64,000 nt of DNA from Alcanivorax jadensis T9 (GTDB lineage Bacteria; Pseudomonadota; Gammaproteobacteria; Pseudomonadales; Alcanivoracaceae), in NCBI RefSeq assembly GCF_000756655.1, contig NZ_ARXU01000006.1, positions 62,001 through 126,000 of the forward strand, given 5' to 3'. Shown piece after piece: positions 4,139 to 51,700 of this stretch (its first letter is position 1; the number at the start of each line of letters is the position of its first letter). The translations under genes and the position numbers were made by a program. The notes below the pieces were generated by a model. It searched no databases, was not told the DNA's origin, and saw nothing but the letters and a program-made list of their open reading frames with translations.

Positions 4139-6163
4139 ATGAAATATGCCCTGCCCACATTGATGAGCTGTCTGCTCCTTGCTGCCTGTGGCGGCAGCGA
4201 TAGCGGCACCCCGACCACGACTAACGCCCCGGCCACAACGCCGACACCCAGTGAGCCACCGCCAACGCCCGACCCGGATCCGGAGCTGCTCGCCTGCGAC
4301 CAGACGCCGCCTAACCCGCTGCGTAATGCGTATTTTGGTGAGCTGCATCTGCATACGGTGTACTCGCTGGATGCCGTTGCCGCGCAGCTGACCCCGGAAG
4401 GCGCCTACCGCTTTGCCATGGGAGAGCCGGTGGCCGCCCCACCCTATGACGCCGCCGGGAATTCGCTGATTCCGCCTTATCAGATTGATCGCCCGCTGGA
4501 TTTTGCGGCGGTGACCGATCACGGCGAATGGCTGGGCGAACGGGAATTGTGTGAGGACCCCAGCCTGGACCCGCTGGCCTACAGCTCCCCCGAGTGCACG
4601 GTGTACCGCCAGGACCGGGAGCTCGGTTTCCTGCTGTTTGGCGGTGGCTGGGCTGGTTTTAGCCAGTTGGTGCCATTCCCCAATATCAGCTTTGACGAAC
4701 CCTTCCTGCTCACCGACAACGAAGTCCACCGCCCATTATTTTGCGGGGTGACGGGGGAGAAGTGCCGGGGCGCCGCGCGTGGGCCCTGGCTGGATGTGCA
4801 GCTGCAGGCTGAGCGCTTTAACCAGCCGGGCTGCTTCACTGCCTTTAACGGCTACGAGTACACCATGTCGCCGCTGAGCGACAACATGCACCGTAATGTG
4901 ATCTTTTCCGGGGACCAGGTGCCGCAGGACCCTGTCAGTGTCTATGAAGCGCCGGACCCTTCGGCTCTGTGGGAACAACTGGACGAGGCCTGCACCGGTG
5001 AGTGCGAGTACCTGACCATTCCCCACAACTCCAACCTGAGTAACGGGCGCATGTTTGCCGGACCGGAAGAAGACGGCTACGACATTGCCGAAAAACGCCG
5101 AGCCGAACCGCTGATCGAGATCTTCCAGGTGAAGGGGGATTCCGAATGTGCGCGGGTGGAAAATGGCAGCCCGGATGATCCCCTGTGTGATTTTGAAAAA
5201 CTGCCAGCCACTAATTTCTTCGAGTTCTTCCTGGGCATCAATCCGATTCCCCCGGCCCCCGCATTTCAGAACTATGTGCGCCATGGTCTGAAGGAAGGGC
5301 TATTGATCGAGGAAGCCAAGGGTGCCAACCCGTTCCAGTACGGTTTCATTGCCAGCACCGACAGCCACTTCGGCCTGCCCGGTGCGGTGGATGAAGACAA
5401 CTTTGTCGGCCACCGGGATGTGCCTCCGGTGGACGGGGTGAAAGACGATTACTTCAATAACCCCGGTGGCCTTGCCGTTGTCTGGGCTGAAGAGAATACC
5501 CGCGCGTCCCTGTTTGATGCCATGCAGCGCAAGGAAACCTATGGCACCAGTGGCCCGCGCATGCAGCTGCGGGTATTTGGTGGCAGCACCGAGCAAATGC
5601 CGGACAACATGTGTGAGCGTGGCGGCCAGGCGTTTGTGGAAACCGGCTACGCGGCCGGCGTGCCCATGGGCGGCGAACTGCACGCCGGCCAGGGCACCCC
5701 ACGCTTCGCCGTGTGGGCCACCGCGGATACCTTCCCCCGTGAGAACGAGCGCAGCGTCAATGTGCCCCTGCAGCGTGTGCAAATCGTCAAAGGCTGGGTG
5801 GAAAAAGATGCCAATGGCCAGTCCCTGGCCCGCGAGCAGGTGTTTGATATTGCCACCGGAAACAGCGACTGGTCCCTGGACGATGACACCTGCCAGGTGT
5901 CCGGTAGCGGCCCGCAACAACTGTGTGCGGTGTGGGACGACCCGCAATTCCAGGCCGATCAGAATGCCTTCTACTACGCCCGTGTGGTGGAAGCCCCCAC
6001 CTGCCGCTGGCTGACCCGCCAGTGCATGAATGCACCGGCGGATCTGGATTGCAGCAACAATCCACAAGAAGAGTGGGCGGCCTGCTGCGAAATCGAGAAC
6101 GGCAATGCCCCCTCCCGCATTCAGGAACGGGCCTGGGCCTCACCGATCTGGTACAAGCAGTGA
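4139..6163 (+). CDS. DUF3604 family lipoprotein
   Basis: A 674-residue exported protein. The N-terminus is a lipoprotein signal with lipobox LAAC (Cys17), followed by a Thr/Pro-rich linker (about residues 20-50). The segment NAYFGELHLHTVYSLDA near residue 65 gives the paired histidines typical of DUF3604 and PHP-like metal-dependent folds, and later segments (AVTDHGEWLG, IPHNSNLSNG, STDSHFGLPG) carry further conserved Asp/His candidates for metal binding. Many cysteines suggest disulfides. Function is not established; a metal-dependent phosphoesterase-like enzyme is only a possibility. The stop overlaps the next start (GTGA), so it is translationally coupled to the parvulin-like gene. Confidence 0.85.
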   Translation: MKYALPTLMSCLLLAACGGSDSGTPTTTNAPATTPTPSEPPPTPDPDPELLACDQTPPNPLRNAYFGELHLHTVYSLDAVAAQLTPEGAYRFAMGEPVAAPPYDAAGNSLIPPYQIDRPLDFAAVTDHGEWLGERELCEDPSLDPLAYSSPECTVYRQDRELGFLLFGGGWAGFSQLVPFPNISFDEPFLLTDNEVHRPLFCGVTGEKCRGAARGPWLDVQLQAERFNQPGCFTAFNGYEYTMSPLSDNMHRNVIFSGDQVPQDPVSVYEAPDPSALWEQLDEACTGECEYLTIPHNSNLSNGRMFAGPEEDGYDIAEKRRAEPLIEIFQVKGDSECARVENGSPDDPLCDFEKLPATNFFEFFLGINPIPPAPAFQNYVRHGLKEGLLIEEAKGANPFQYGFIASTDSHFGLPGAVDEDNFVGHRDVPPVDGVKDDYFNNPGGLAVVWAEENTRASLFDAMQRKETYGTSGPRMQLRVFGGSTEQMPDNMCERGGQAFVETGYAAGVPMGGELHAGQGTPRFAVWATADTFPRENERSVNVPLQRVQIVKGWVEKDANGQSLAREQVFDIATGNSDWSLDDDTCQVSGSGPQQLCAVWDDPQFQADQNAFYYARVVEAPTCRWLTRQCMNAPADLDCSNNPQEEWAACCEIENGNAPSRIQERAWASPIWYKQ

Positions 6164-48515: not shown

Positions 48516-50072
48516 ATGCCCACCCCCCAACCCGCCACACGCCGTGAGTGGCTGGGACTGACGGTGCTGATGCTGCCCACCGTGTTGCTGGCCCTGGATA
48601 TGACGGTGCTGCATCTGGCCGCTCCCCATCTCAGTGCCGATCTGAAGCCCACCAGCGCCGAGCTGCTGTGGATCCTGGATATCTATGGCTTCATGATCGC
48701 CGGCTTCCTGGTGACCATGGGGACTCTGGGCGATCGCATTGGTCGGCGGCGTCTGTTGCTTACCGGGGCCACCGCCTTCGGTATTGCTTCAGCCATGGCG
48801 GCCTTTGCCACCAGTGCGGAAATGCTGATTGCCACCCGCGCGTTACTGGGCATTGCCGGGGCCACTCTGATGCCCTCTACCCTGTCGCTGCTGCGGAATA
48901 TGTTTCAGGTGGAGCAGGAGCGCACCGTGGCGATTACCGTGTGGATGACCGGTTTCATCGTCGGTAGTGCCATTGGTCCGCTGGTGGGCGGTGCGTTGCT
49001 GGAATTCTTCTGGTGGGGCTCGGTGTTCCTGCTGGGGGTACCGGTCATGCTGTTGCTACTGGTGTGCGGCCCGCTGCTGTTACCGGAATTTCGTGATGAG
49101 GAAGCCGGCGCCCAGGACTGGACCAGCGCCCTGCTGTCGGTGGCCATGGTTCTGGCGGTAATCTACGGTCTGAAAGACATGGCACGCAACGGGGTGTCAC
49201 TGATACCGCTGCTGTCCATTGCTCTGGGACTCGCTATCGGGATGCTGTTTGTCCGTCGCCAGCGGCGGCTGGCCGAGCCCATGTTTGATCTGTCGCTGTT
49301 TGCCATCCGCACCTTCAGCACCTCGGTGGCGGCCATGATGCTGACCATTCTGGCCCTGTCCGGCGCCTGGCTGATGGTATTCCAGTACCTGCAGGGGGTG
49401 CTCGACCTGTCGCCGCTGGAGGCCGGGCTGGTGATGCTGCCGCCTGCCCTGGTGCAAACCGTAGCCTCTTTGCTGGTTCCCCGGCTGACCCGTTACCTGC
49501 CCCACTGGCAACTGGTTAGTGCCGGACTTGTGATGGCAACCTTCGGTTTGCTGATCCTGCTGCTGGTGCACAGTCCGGCCCAGATCCCCTTGTTGATCGT
49601 GGGAATGACAGTGATGGGCGTGGGCGTCATGCCGATGATGATTCTGGGTACCGACATGGTGGTCAGCGCCGCACCGGCACGCAAAGCCGGCGCGGCATCG
49701 GCCACGTCGGAAACCGCTACCGAACTGGGCATGGCCCTGGGGATTGCGGTGATCGGCAGTATTGGCGCGGCCGTGTACCGGCAACATATGCTGGAGCAGC
49801 TCCCTGCGGGATTGCCTGACGAGCTGTCACTGGCTGCCGGGGATACCCTGGGCGGCGCCATCGGTGCCGCCGCGCAGTTGGGCCCGGAACTGGGCGCGCC
49901 GGTGATGGCCGCCGCCCGAGAGGGCTTCAGCCTGGCACTGCATACCAACTCGGCCATTGGTGCAGGGATTCTGGCAATCACTGCCGTGCTGGTGGCTGTG
50001 ATGCTGCACAGCCGCACCCCGGACGATGGGGTGGAAGCGGAGCCAACCGTGCCTACTTCACCCGATCAATAA
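48516..50072 (+). CDS. DHA2-family MFS drug exporter (QacA/SmvA-like)
   Basis: A 518-residue transporter with about fourteen helices. ATG 48516 follows GAGGAAA at good spacing. The first helix ends ALDMTVLHLAAPHLS, the SmvA/QacA pattern with an acidic residue in helix 1, followed by GTLGDRIGRRRLLL (motif A). SmvA exports methyl viologen, acriflavine and other cations by proton antiport. No local regulator gene was found. Its 3' end overlaps the convergent small exported-protein gene by 20 bases. Confidence 0.88.
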   Translation: MPTPQPATRREWLGLTVLMLPTVLLALDMTVLHLAAPHLSADLKPTSAELLWILDIYGFMIAGFLVTMGTLGDRIGRRRLLLTGATAFGIASAMAAFATSAEMLIATRALLGIAGATLMPSTLSLLRNMFQVEQERTVAITVWMTGFIVGSAIGPLVGGALLEFFWWGSVFLLGVPVMLLLLVCGPLLLPEFRDEEAGAQDWTSALLSVAMVLAVIYGLKDMARNGVSLIPLLSIALGLAIGMLFVRRQRRLAEPMFDLSLFAIRTFSTSVAAMMLTILALSGAWLMVFQYLQGVLDLSPLEAGLVMLPPALVQTVASLLVPRLTRYLPHWQLVSAGLVMATFGLLILLLVHSPAQIPLLIVGMTVMGVGVMPMMILGTDMVVSAAPARKAGAASATSETATELGMALGIAVIGSIGAAVYRQHMLEQLPAGLPDELSLAAGDTLGGAIGAAAQLGPELGAPVMAAAREGFSLALHTNSAIGAGILAITAVLVAVMLHSRTPDDGVEAEPTVPTSPDQ

Positions 50073-50454
50073 TAACCCGGGTGTCGCCGGCCTCTGTCGG
50101 GCCGGCGCCGAAGGCCGCCACCAAGGTGGGGCCTTCGTGCAGGCGCACCTGCTGACGGATTCTGTGGCGCCCGTCACCACTGCTGCCGTAGGCGATGTCG
50201 AGAGCAAAGCTGTCCTTGCCCAGGCGGTCAATTGCCACGTCATAACCACTACCACTGGCTTGCCAATGGTGACGACTGTCACTCTGATAGAGCCGAATCA
50301 CCCAGTCGCGACCGCCCTCTTCATTGCCCTGCTCCACCACCCGGATACCGCTGTCAGGTACGCCATGGCGCTCCATCACCAGAAAGTGGAAAGCACTGGC
50401 AATCGCCACCAGACACACCACCGCGCTTAACAGCAGACGCCATTTTCCCGTCAT
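50053..50454 (-). CDS. Small membrane-anchored protein, function unknown
   Basis: A 133-residue ORF with one N-terminal hydrophobic segment (residues 5-27, WRLLLSAVVCLVAIASAFHFLVM), then a polar region. The body looks beta-rich (GYDVAIDRLGKDSFALDIAYGSS) with no recognised family. The ATG lies at 50454. It overlaps the MFS exporter by 20 bases tail to tail. Expression is likely but unproven. Confidence 0.6.
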   Translation of the reverse strand: MTGKWRLLLSAVVCLVAIASAFHFLVMERHGVPDSGIRVVEQGNEEGGRDWVIRLYQSDSRHHWQASGSGYDVAIDRLGKDSFALDIAYGSSGDGRHRIRQQVRLHEGPTLVAAFGAGPTEAGDTRVIIDRVK

Positions 50455-50504: not shown

Positions 50505-50770
50505 GGGGGCCTCTGCGTAACTCCTTGCATGCTCAGCGAGACCTGAAGTGTGCAGCTGTTGTGTTTTGTCGCGACGGACAGGGTGGTTCCCTTTCCTAGC
50601 GACAAAGCGCAGCAGATGTGCGCTTCAGATCTCGCCCTCCGGGGCTTTCAGGCTGGCCCACACTCGTTGTTGCACTTTCTCGACAGGCAACCAGCATGCC
50701 TTTAAAAGTGCGCCTAGATTGTGAACCAGCCTGAAAGCCTGAGTATACAAGGAGTTACGCAGAGGCCCCC
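50505..50770. mobile_element. Structured 266-bp element with 32-bp terminal inverted repeats
   Basis: The terminal arms 50505-50536 and 50739-50770 (GGGGGCCTCTGCGTAACTCC...) match at 30 of 32 positions. Inside are two further hairpins: 50536-50572 pairs with 50599-50635 (29 of 37 Watson-Crick, six of eight differences being G-U compatible on the plus strand), and 50643-50656 pairs perfectly with 50726-50739 over 14 bp, enclosing GCACTTT/AAAGTGC and AGGCA/TGCCT. No ORF lies inside. A miniature transposable element is the simplest reading; a structured RNA is the alternative. No target-site duplication is obvious. Confidence 0.7.
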
Positions 50771-50851
50771 TACTCTCACAGTGGAATTGTATTTTTTGGC
50801 CAACAGGCGTTAAGTGGATGACAGGATCATTGGAGAAGAGGTGGTATAACA

Positions 50852-51700
50852 ATGAAAATGCACATCATGCCAATTCGCCGGAATCTCAAGTTTCACGTTC
50901 CGGATGACAAGGTACTCAACTGGCACAGTTGGGGTCCCACGGTCACCCAGTTCTTCAACACCCTGTCGCTGTTTTTCCCGGAAGGCGAGCGTTTCTTCAT
51001 CAACAGTGTACGCAAGTATCGCGACCGCATTGAGGACCCGGAACTGCAGGAAGCGGTGCGGGCCTTTATCGGCCAGGAGGCCATGCACGGGCGCGAGCAC
51101 GAGGATTACAACCAGAAGATGGTGGAGGCCGGTCTGCCGGTGGATACCCAGGAAGCCATTGTTTCCAAACTGCTGGATGTGATTTCCAAATACACCCCCA
51201 ATGCCCTGCAACTCTCCGCCACCGTGGCACTGGAACACCTGACCGCCATTCTTGCGGATATCCTGCTGCGTGAACCGGACCTGATTGATGATTCGGATGA
51301 GTCATACCAGCGTCTGTGGCACTGGCATGCCCTGGAAGAGACCGAACACAAGGCGGTAGCGTTTGATGTTTACCAGACCGTATTCGGTAGCGGCATCAAG
51401 GCGTGGGGTTTGCGCAGTGTGGGCCTGATCCTCGCCACCACCATTTTCTTCTCGCTGTTCTATCCTTTCTACCTGATCAACACCTGGAAGGTAGGCCAGC
51501 TGTTCAATCTGAAAGGCTGGTGGCTATCGTTCAAGTTCCAGTGGCTGAAACCGGGCGGCCTGCGCCGGGTGGTGATTCCCTGGCTGGACTGGTTCAAACC
51601 CAAGTTCCACCCCTGGGACCATGACAACCGGGAGTTCCTGGCGGAAATGGATAACCTGATCGGCGACGCAGACGGCTATCAGAAAAACGAAGCAGCCTGA
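50852..51700 (+). CDS. PF10118 metal-dependent hydrolase-like protein, ferritin-like
   Basis: A 282-residue protein of the uncharacterised PF10118 family. Candidate diiron ligands lie in GQEAMHGREHEDY, VALEHLTAI and ALEETEHKAVAFD, giving the E...ExxH...E...ExxH pattern of ferritin-like four-helix bundles. A hydrophobic segment (about 188-210, LILATTIFFSLFYPFYLI) suggests membrane association. Members are often annotated as metal-dependent hydrolases, but the motifs fit an oxygenase or desaturase-like diiron site as well. A terminator follows at 51723. It starts 82 bases after the structured element. Confidence 0.85.
   Translation: MKMHIMPIRRNLKFHVPDDKVLNWHSWGPTVTQFFNTLSLFFPEGERFFINSVRKYRDRIEDPELQEAVRAFIGQEAMHGREHEDYNQKMVEAGLPVDTQEAIVSKLLDVISKYTPNALQLSATVALEHLTAILADILLREPDLIDDSDESYQRLWHWHALEETEHKAVAFDVYQTVFGSGIKAWGLRSVGLILATTIFFSLFYPFYLINTWKVGQLFNLKGWWLSFKFQWLKPGGLRRVVIPWLDWFKPKFHPWDHDNREFLAEMDNLIGDADGYQKNEAA

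Follow-up and report, generated by a model that had tools for sequence, protein, structure and literature searches.

A hairpin-bearing block of Alcanivorax jadensis T9 is probably an old copy of an IS5-type MITE found in several gammaproteobacterial groups

Results

The window analyzed here is a stretch of 64,000 nucleotides of Alcanivorax jadensis T9 (contig NZ_ARXU01000006.1, positions 62,001 to 126,000 of the forward strand). A 266 bp block at 50505-50770 lies between two divergent open reading frames (ORFs), one on the minus strand (50053-50454, no Pfam match) and one on the plus strand (50852-51700, matching PF10118 at 1.7e-84). Two hairpins are nested inside its terminal inverted repeats (Table 1). 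Re-pairing of the repeats bore out the 30/32 paired positions claimed in the initial annotation, the remaining two being one G-T and one C-A; the best terminal match among 20,000 random 266 bp stretches of the same window was 20/32. Our recount also agreed with the annotated make-up of hairpin 1, whose 37 positions (element positions 32-68 against 131-95) comprise 29 Watson-Crick pairs, six G-U, one C-A and one G-A, and with the perfect 14 bp base of hairpin 2 (element positions 139-152), which is followed by a tandem C-A mismatch. Folded as RNA, the whole element reached -176.3 kcal/mol on the plus strand (z = -15.9) and -166.1 kcal/mol on the minus strand (z = -14.4), and 0/200 shuffles were as good on either strand. 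Rfam 15 assigned no family to the window stretch, the best match (E 0.47) being a microRNA model that scored 19.3 bits where the cutoff is 100; at ten other element loci, the hits at the gathering threshold were limited to six tRNAs and a single cobalamin riboswitch.

Table 1. Features of the 266 bp block and the adjoining leader (window coordinates; near set, n = 80; wider set, n = 30).
Feature	Position	Strand	Remarks
Outer stem, left arm	50505..50536		19-bp IS5-type end at 50506-50524, diverged version in window copy
Hairpin 1	50536..50635	+	more stable on plus in 80/80 near-set and 26/30 wider-set copies
Junction mini-hairpin CCTCCGG	50636..50642		within block CGCCCTnCGGGGC
Hairpin 2	50643..50739	-	perfect 14-bp base; more stable on minus in 78/80 near-set and 27/30 wider-set copies
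Outer stem, right arm	50739..50770		19-bp IS5-type end at 50751-50769, diverged version in window copy
PF10118 gene leader, 81 bp	50771..50851	+	contains CTCTCACAG; 10 relatives at the locus have CTGTCACAG, element or not

A palindromic motif resembling CTGTCACAG stands upstream of the PF10118 gene in 11/11 genomes, with or without the element; in the window it lies within 50771-50790 and is one base off. This motif is a possible operator.

The search for further copies that the initial annotation had proposed returned many. BLAST gave 32 matches to the block in its own genome, 17 of them longer than 140 bp, and 29/56 relatives also had matches. The genus was represented by 17 genomes, own genome included, of which 13 showed 13-23 matches each and four showed 2-7, these being matches rather than copies. 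An order-wide draw, in which fewer candidates were scored per genome, gave matches in 20/244 genomes, own included. Plasmids and phages held no match to the window copy, and plasmids none to one wider copy. For the counts that follow, a near set was built from 144 BLAST pieces, which gave 110 distinct copies; 106 were aligned (4 were left out) and 80 were non-redundant, including five from sister genera of the family. A wider set was drawn from 67 stretches that matched the exact core pattern, whose record titles include Alcanivorax, Alloalcanivorax, Pseudomonas saliphila, Gilvimarinus, Marinobacterium and Bermanella as well as MAGs labelled Thiotrichaceae, Xanthomonadaceae and Aeromonadales; the pattern was not found in viral contigs. 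Fifteen stretches of the Alcanivorax group were set aside by hand, and 30 of the other 52 had clear ends; seven of these 30 are still titled Alcanivorax or Alloalcanivorax, so that "wider" does not stand for other families only. The junction block CGCCCTnCGGGGC is invariant in the wider set by construction, since it was part of the fetching pattern.

The element is thus short, dispersed and without a transposase ORF, as a MITE is. Size variants with the same ends ranged from 69 to 314 bp (among them 69, 87, 178, 211, 299 and 314 bp); the 178 bp variant retains hairpin 1 only, and hairpin 1 is mostly lost from the 211 bp variant. We infer that such loss of whole hairpins matches what is expected from replication slippage. 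A solitary 19 bp end, GGAGCCTCTGAATAACTCC, with TTAA on each side was seen at another locus (L072, G000:C10:49714) and resembles a remnant after core loss.

Presence and absence were compared at the window locus, as the initial annotation had suggested, and empty sites do exist there (G005, G009 and G010). One relative, G001, carries an orthologous copy, and G014 carries an independent insertion, displaced by about 20 bp, that duplicated CTAG; the empty site in G016 has this motif once. Among the 80 non-redundant copies, YTAR, which makes up 0.2% of the window 4-mers, lay to the left of 29, to the right of 27 and on both sides of 17. Identical flanking 4-mers were found in 16/80 copies (shuffled mean 3.9, maximum 10), the other 64 having none. 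A 4 bp YTAR target duplication is therefore a property of the family, but the window copy itself, flanked by CCGG and CTAC, has no clean duplication and its ends are off the consensus, suggesting that it is an old copy.

Although the initial annotation had proposed that the block could act on the PF10118 gene 81 bp downstream, the locus comparison does not point that way. The orthologous copy in G001 and the independent insertion in G014 would be consistent with a cis-regulatory element of this gene. Against this, the element was present at only 3 of the 11 loci compared (one of them the independent insertion) and absent from the stretch examined in the other eight, so the gene does not need it, and the same genomes have copies in numerous other locations. 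We regard a cis-regulatory role at this gene as very improbable. By a rough ORF call that placed 79 of the 80 copies, 28 lay between divergent genes, 40 between tandem genes and 11 between convergent ones, and copy orientation was unbiased (15 versus 25, p = 0.15).

The commonest 19 bp end of the family, GGAGCCTCTGAATAACTCC, resembles the ends carried by IS5-family elements in G005, G032 and Marinobacterium, which are about 1.15 kb long and have YTAR duplications. Several end types were seen, namely GGAGCC.., GGAACC.., GGGCAC.., GGACCC.. and CAGGCTG... For some copies the likeness was close: the end of an Alcanivorax MAG copy (L236) matched the IS5 end of G005 and G032 at 20/20 positions (22/22 with two target bases, E about 4e-7), that of a second MAG copy (L231) matched the IS5 end of G218 at 15/15 (19/19 with four target bases, E 2e-5), and that of a Marinobacterium copy (L251) matched an IS5 element of its own genome at 18/19 (E 6e-4). 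The first two matches are between different genomes and only the third is within one genome. Two of the transposases matched the IS5 model NF033581 (4.8e-106 and 6e-108), and a clean TTAG, CTAG or CTAA duplication was present at three of the four IS loci compared; the G218 locus lacked one and its gene is broken. IS5-like terminal repeats thus occur in members of the family, the window copy carrying a diverged version. That ends follow the resident transposase is therefore read from a handful of examples; for the CAGGCTG type, the search gave no IS partner. The block had been annotated as undescribed, a label that does not hold for its ends: the family carries a known IS end type, which was part of what the initial annotation had itself named as refuting its proposal.

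In the search for a resident autonomous partner, PF01609 was positive in G005 and gave none in G000, G007, G011 and G013, all rich in element ends, so present mobility in those four genomes is unproven. PF01609 was found in 7/16 further genomes reached through loci and PF05598 in 2/10 genomes searched, and the G005 transposase had any match in only 10 of the 44 element-bearing genomes searched. Twelve PF01609 loci were examined, among which L285 (Marinobacterium) had IS5-type ends with a duplication and L292 had similar ends without one. When ten IS loci were compared with the element, the matches listed, six per locus at most, were confined to the ends and short pieces, except that in L310 a fragment of the element lies next to the IS. 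In G013, two inverted element ends 1264 bp apart (L199, G013:C2:311624-312887) enclose a 299-aa ORF; this unit was rejected as an autonomous partner because the ORF matches DUF2914 and not a transposase, and the two ends may frame a cargo unit or be there by coincidence.

Folded alone as RNA, the two hairpins showed opposite strand preferences in both sets (Table 1). The whole element folded better on the plus strand in 74/80 near-set and 15/30 wider-set copies. Shared descent explains part of the polarity of the hairpins. Changes were also counted on trees as single-step events, in mostly paired columns; the trees and the parsimony are rough, and the copies are not fully independent. In this count, hairpin 1 gave 41 events to G-U and 16 to A-C (p = 0.001), hairpin 2 gave 20 and 27 (not significant), and the two hairpins differed at p = 0.003, or p = 0.10 and 0.09 set by set. 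The outer stem had no strand preference (23:20 and 8:15), as expected for double-stranded ends. A looser count gave 50:13 and 18:7 for hairpin 1, 11:28 and 10:21 for hairpin 2, and 34:27 and 12:21 for the outer stem; this pattern weakened under the stricter filter, and the stricter count is the one we rely on. The richness of hairpin 1 in G-U had been put forward as a sign of a functional plus-strand RNA. We found that all copies of the set share it and that hairpin 2 reverses it, so it is no mark of a single functional plus-strand RNA; a structured RNA should prefer G-U on one strand throughout, and here folding favored plus for hairpin 1 and minus for hairpin 2, and the outer stem leaned to neither.

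The opposite polarity of the hairpins, their difference in events and the lean of hairpin 1 to G-U would suit a core selected as RNA, in which transcripts entering from either side first meet the best-folding hairpin, which shields, ends or processes them and makes the insertion tolerable or useful. We consider this account rather unlikely. Hairpin 2 taken alone gives no significant excess, and 35 of the 57 hairpin 1 events are C>T, which leaves room for a mutational bias. Moreover, the 28 copies between divergent genes have no gene end facing the element, and the unbiased orientation also speaks against it.

The same polarity appeared under DNA parameters, with hairpin 1 favoring plus in 80/80 near-set and 25/30 wider-set copies and hairpin 2 favoring minus in 79/80 and 29/30. 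This would be consistent with hairpins that act as single-stranded DNA, for example on an exposed lagging-strand template or during mobility, like the REPINs moved by RAYT. Y1_Tnp matches, at a level that does not distinguish the RAYT subtype, were present in 9/10 genomes searched; G000 had three, of which one is interrupted by an internal stop. The exception, G028, holds 13 element matches and is 86% complete; three of four Y1 loci were without element trace and the fourth had only short, weak matches. A 4 bp target duplication and IS5-type ends are, to our knowledge, not typical of Y1 enzymes, and we judge a single-stranded DNA role of this kind improbable.

The covariation check proposed in the initial annotation gave a mixed answer. 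The arms do change in pairs: two-sided changes occurred at 64/91 predicted pairs (31 sequences), and at positions 2-26 of the near-set outer stem, 235 cells showed paired changes against the consensus and 101 showed other changes. Within a copy, the outer-stem arms matched at 18.45/19 positions on average, compared with 13.7 between different copies, while clustering of paired changes in this stem was weak (17 observed versus 12.2 expected, 26 copies). Between orthologs, two-sided changes were too few to test (5-261 in L006/L129; 150-224 in L100 or L101/L107). Paired change can also stem from copying of one DNA arm from the other. Eight loci of genome OFTM290 were compared. In L233 the two arms of hairpin 1 are perfectly complementary over 29 nt, but in its sister copies L225, L229, L259 and L268 exact complementarity covers only 7-9 nt; the 3' arm of L280 is identical to theirs, and L237 and L258 are shortened or different. 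L233 thus shows arm-to-arm copying at the DNA level, one likely mechanism of paired change, and covariation alone is therefore no proof of RNA.

This copying is what would be expected of a plain decaying DNA palindrome, whose arms stay alike only through template-switch copying and whose core is alike across taxa because of recent spread. The absence of strand preference in the outer stem agrees with it, and template switching can maintain hairpins (PMC8794818). We hold this explanation to be quite possible, if somewhat short of an even chance. The opposite hairpin polarity weighs against it, as do slow divergence and loop conservation, described below, each with its own limits.

Sixteen ortholog pairs were assembled, from which two at the L018/L015 locus and the redundant L100/L107 were dropped. 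In the remaining 13, the element differed at 64/3473 sites (1.8%), the next 40 bp at 4.8% and sequence more than 120 bp away at about 8-11%, which favors a core selected as RNA over a decaying palindrome. With all 16 pairs, the element differed by 4.8%, the nearest 60 bp by 4.7% and the flanks by 8.0%, so that slow divergence depends on setting the two contrary pairs aside; the ortholog copies were also picked by similarity to the window copy, a choice that favors slow, well-kept copies. At the excluded locus of G000, the flanks are about 95-99% alike with those of L332 (G001) and L334 (G005) and the elements about 25% different. L015 (G000:C5:174288-174553) sits in the same gap as L332 and L334; the locus was treated as an independent insertion in this gap, and element replacement could be the cause instead.

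The two sets also differed in loop conservation. In the wider set, the internal-loop positions of hairpin 2 were more alike than its stem (0.757 versus 0.662), again in favor of the RNA account. In the near set loop and stem were equally alike (0.900 and 0.896), and the terminal part of hairpin 2 was, at 0.593 in the wider set, the least alike region after the outer stem, both of which count against it. Junction and loop positions were conserved in the wider set, where the fetching pattern included part of the junction.

Discussion

Empty sites, YTAR duplication and IS5-like ends identify an IS5-type MITE and not an undescribed kind of mobile RNA. We conclude that the block very probably represents an old copy from a family of non-autonomous IS5-type MITEs, about 265 bp long and spread over several gammaproteobacterial groups; the status of the family as mobile DNA with IS5-type ends has good support. 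The initial annotation had offered a mobile structured RNA element or a transposon derivative: mobility, many copies and the transposon origin stand, and a new kind of mobile RNA does not. Likewise, the target-site duplication it suggested looking for is seen in the family and not in the window copy. In the mechanism that we propose, an IS5 transposase supplied in trans would cut at the 19 bp ends and paste the element into YTAR sites.

Several known systems resemble this family. MITEPsy1 of Pseudomonas syringae is a 100 nt element that was caught moving in a trap and has ends like those of the insertion sequence ISPsy2, and MITEPsy1-like sequences are reported from other bacteria, Marinobacter aquaeolei included (PMC3189936). 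The ends of both families have TCTGAAAAAGCC in common, and MITEPsy1 makes a 4 bp duplication of CTAG or YTAA; our element is longer and has a double-hairpin core, of which that excerpt describes none for MITEPsy1, the two being compared by description and not by interior sequence (PMC3189936). IS5 insertion is accompanied by YTAR (PMC10359306). The element shares its end type and YTAR duplication with IS5-family insertion sequences of the NF033581 type and, unlike them, has no transposase gene. QMITE2 of Coxiella burnetii is also small, with terminal repeats (23-29 bp), a core of 113-145 bp and a transcript predicted to fold stably, but its duplications are 7-9 bp and ours 4 bp; the two are set apart by description, not by sequence (PMC10969869).

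The element also invites comparison with other hairpin repeats. REPINs and BIMEs are paired inverted hairpins that are intergenic and occur in many copies, and all three features recur here. The element differs from them in its target duplication, its IS5 ends and the fact that hairpins 1 and 2 are different sequences. We know of no target duplication in REPIN/RAYT repeats, whereas the present family duplicates YTAR. Among the top-listed literature, in which subscription journals are thinly covered, we found no published description of the MITE family, which is apparently new and unnamed and set apart by its elaborate core.

A neutral MITE has no need of a conserved core, and the MITE label therefore leaves the core unexplained. 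The ends differ between lineages, in some of which they match known IS5 ends, whereas the core is retained; the complementarity of the arms would be preserved at least partly by template switching, one arm being copied from the other during replication, and perhaps with the help of a further constraint on the core. The pattern fits hairpins that would each act in whichever single strand, be it RNA or DNA, places them nearest the 5' end, and selection of the core as RNA or single-stranded DNA is possible. With considerable reserve, we suggest a strand-symmetric mobile element in which lasting selection as single strands acts in opposite senses on the two hairpins, the 5'-nearest hairpin being the well-paired one on any strand that becomes transcribed or exposed, and in which the same core persisted across several gammaproteobacterial groups as the ends shifted to fit different IS5 transposases; we find this doubtful as a whole.

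The IS5-type MITE occurs in oil-degrading and other marine Gammaproteobacteria. It provides a natural test of what preserves the core of a non-autonomous element whose ends differ from lineage to lineage, and of the share of compensatory hairpin change that comes from template switching as opposed to selection on RNA.

Two further loci deserve mention. In Marinobacterium stanieri (L251:5103-5607), the element (5340-5607) starts where a cobalamin riboswitch match (5103-5349) ends, and from this arrangement it may lie in the leader of a riboswitch-controlled gene. At another locus (L062:1-4000), the contig starts at an element end, followed by two genes that, from the appearance of their sequences, we take to be alkane-monooxygenase-like, the second with a presumably rubredoxin-like tail.
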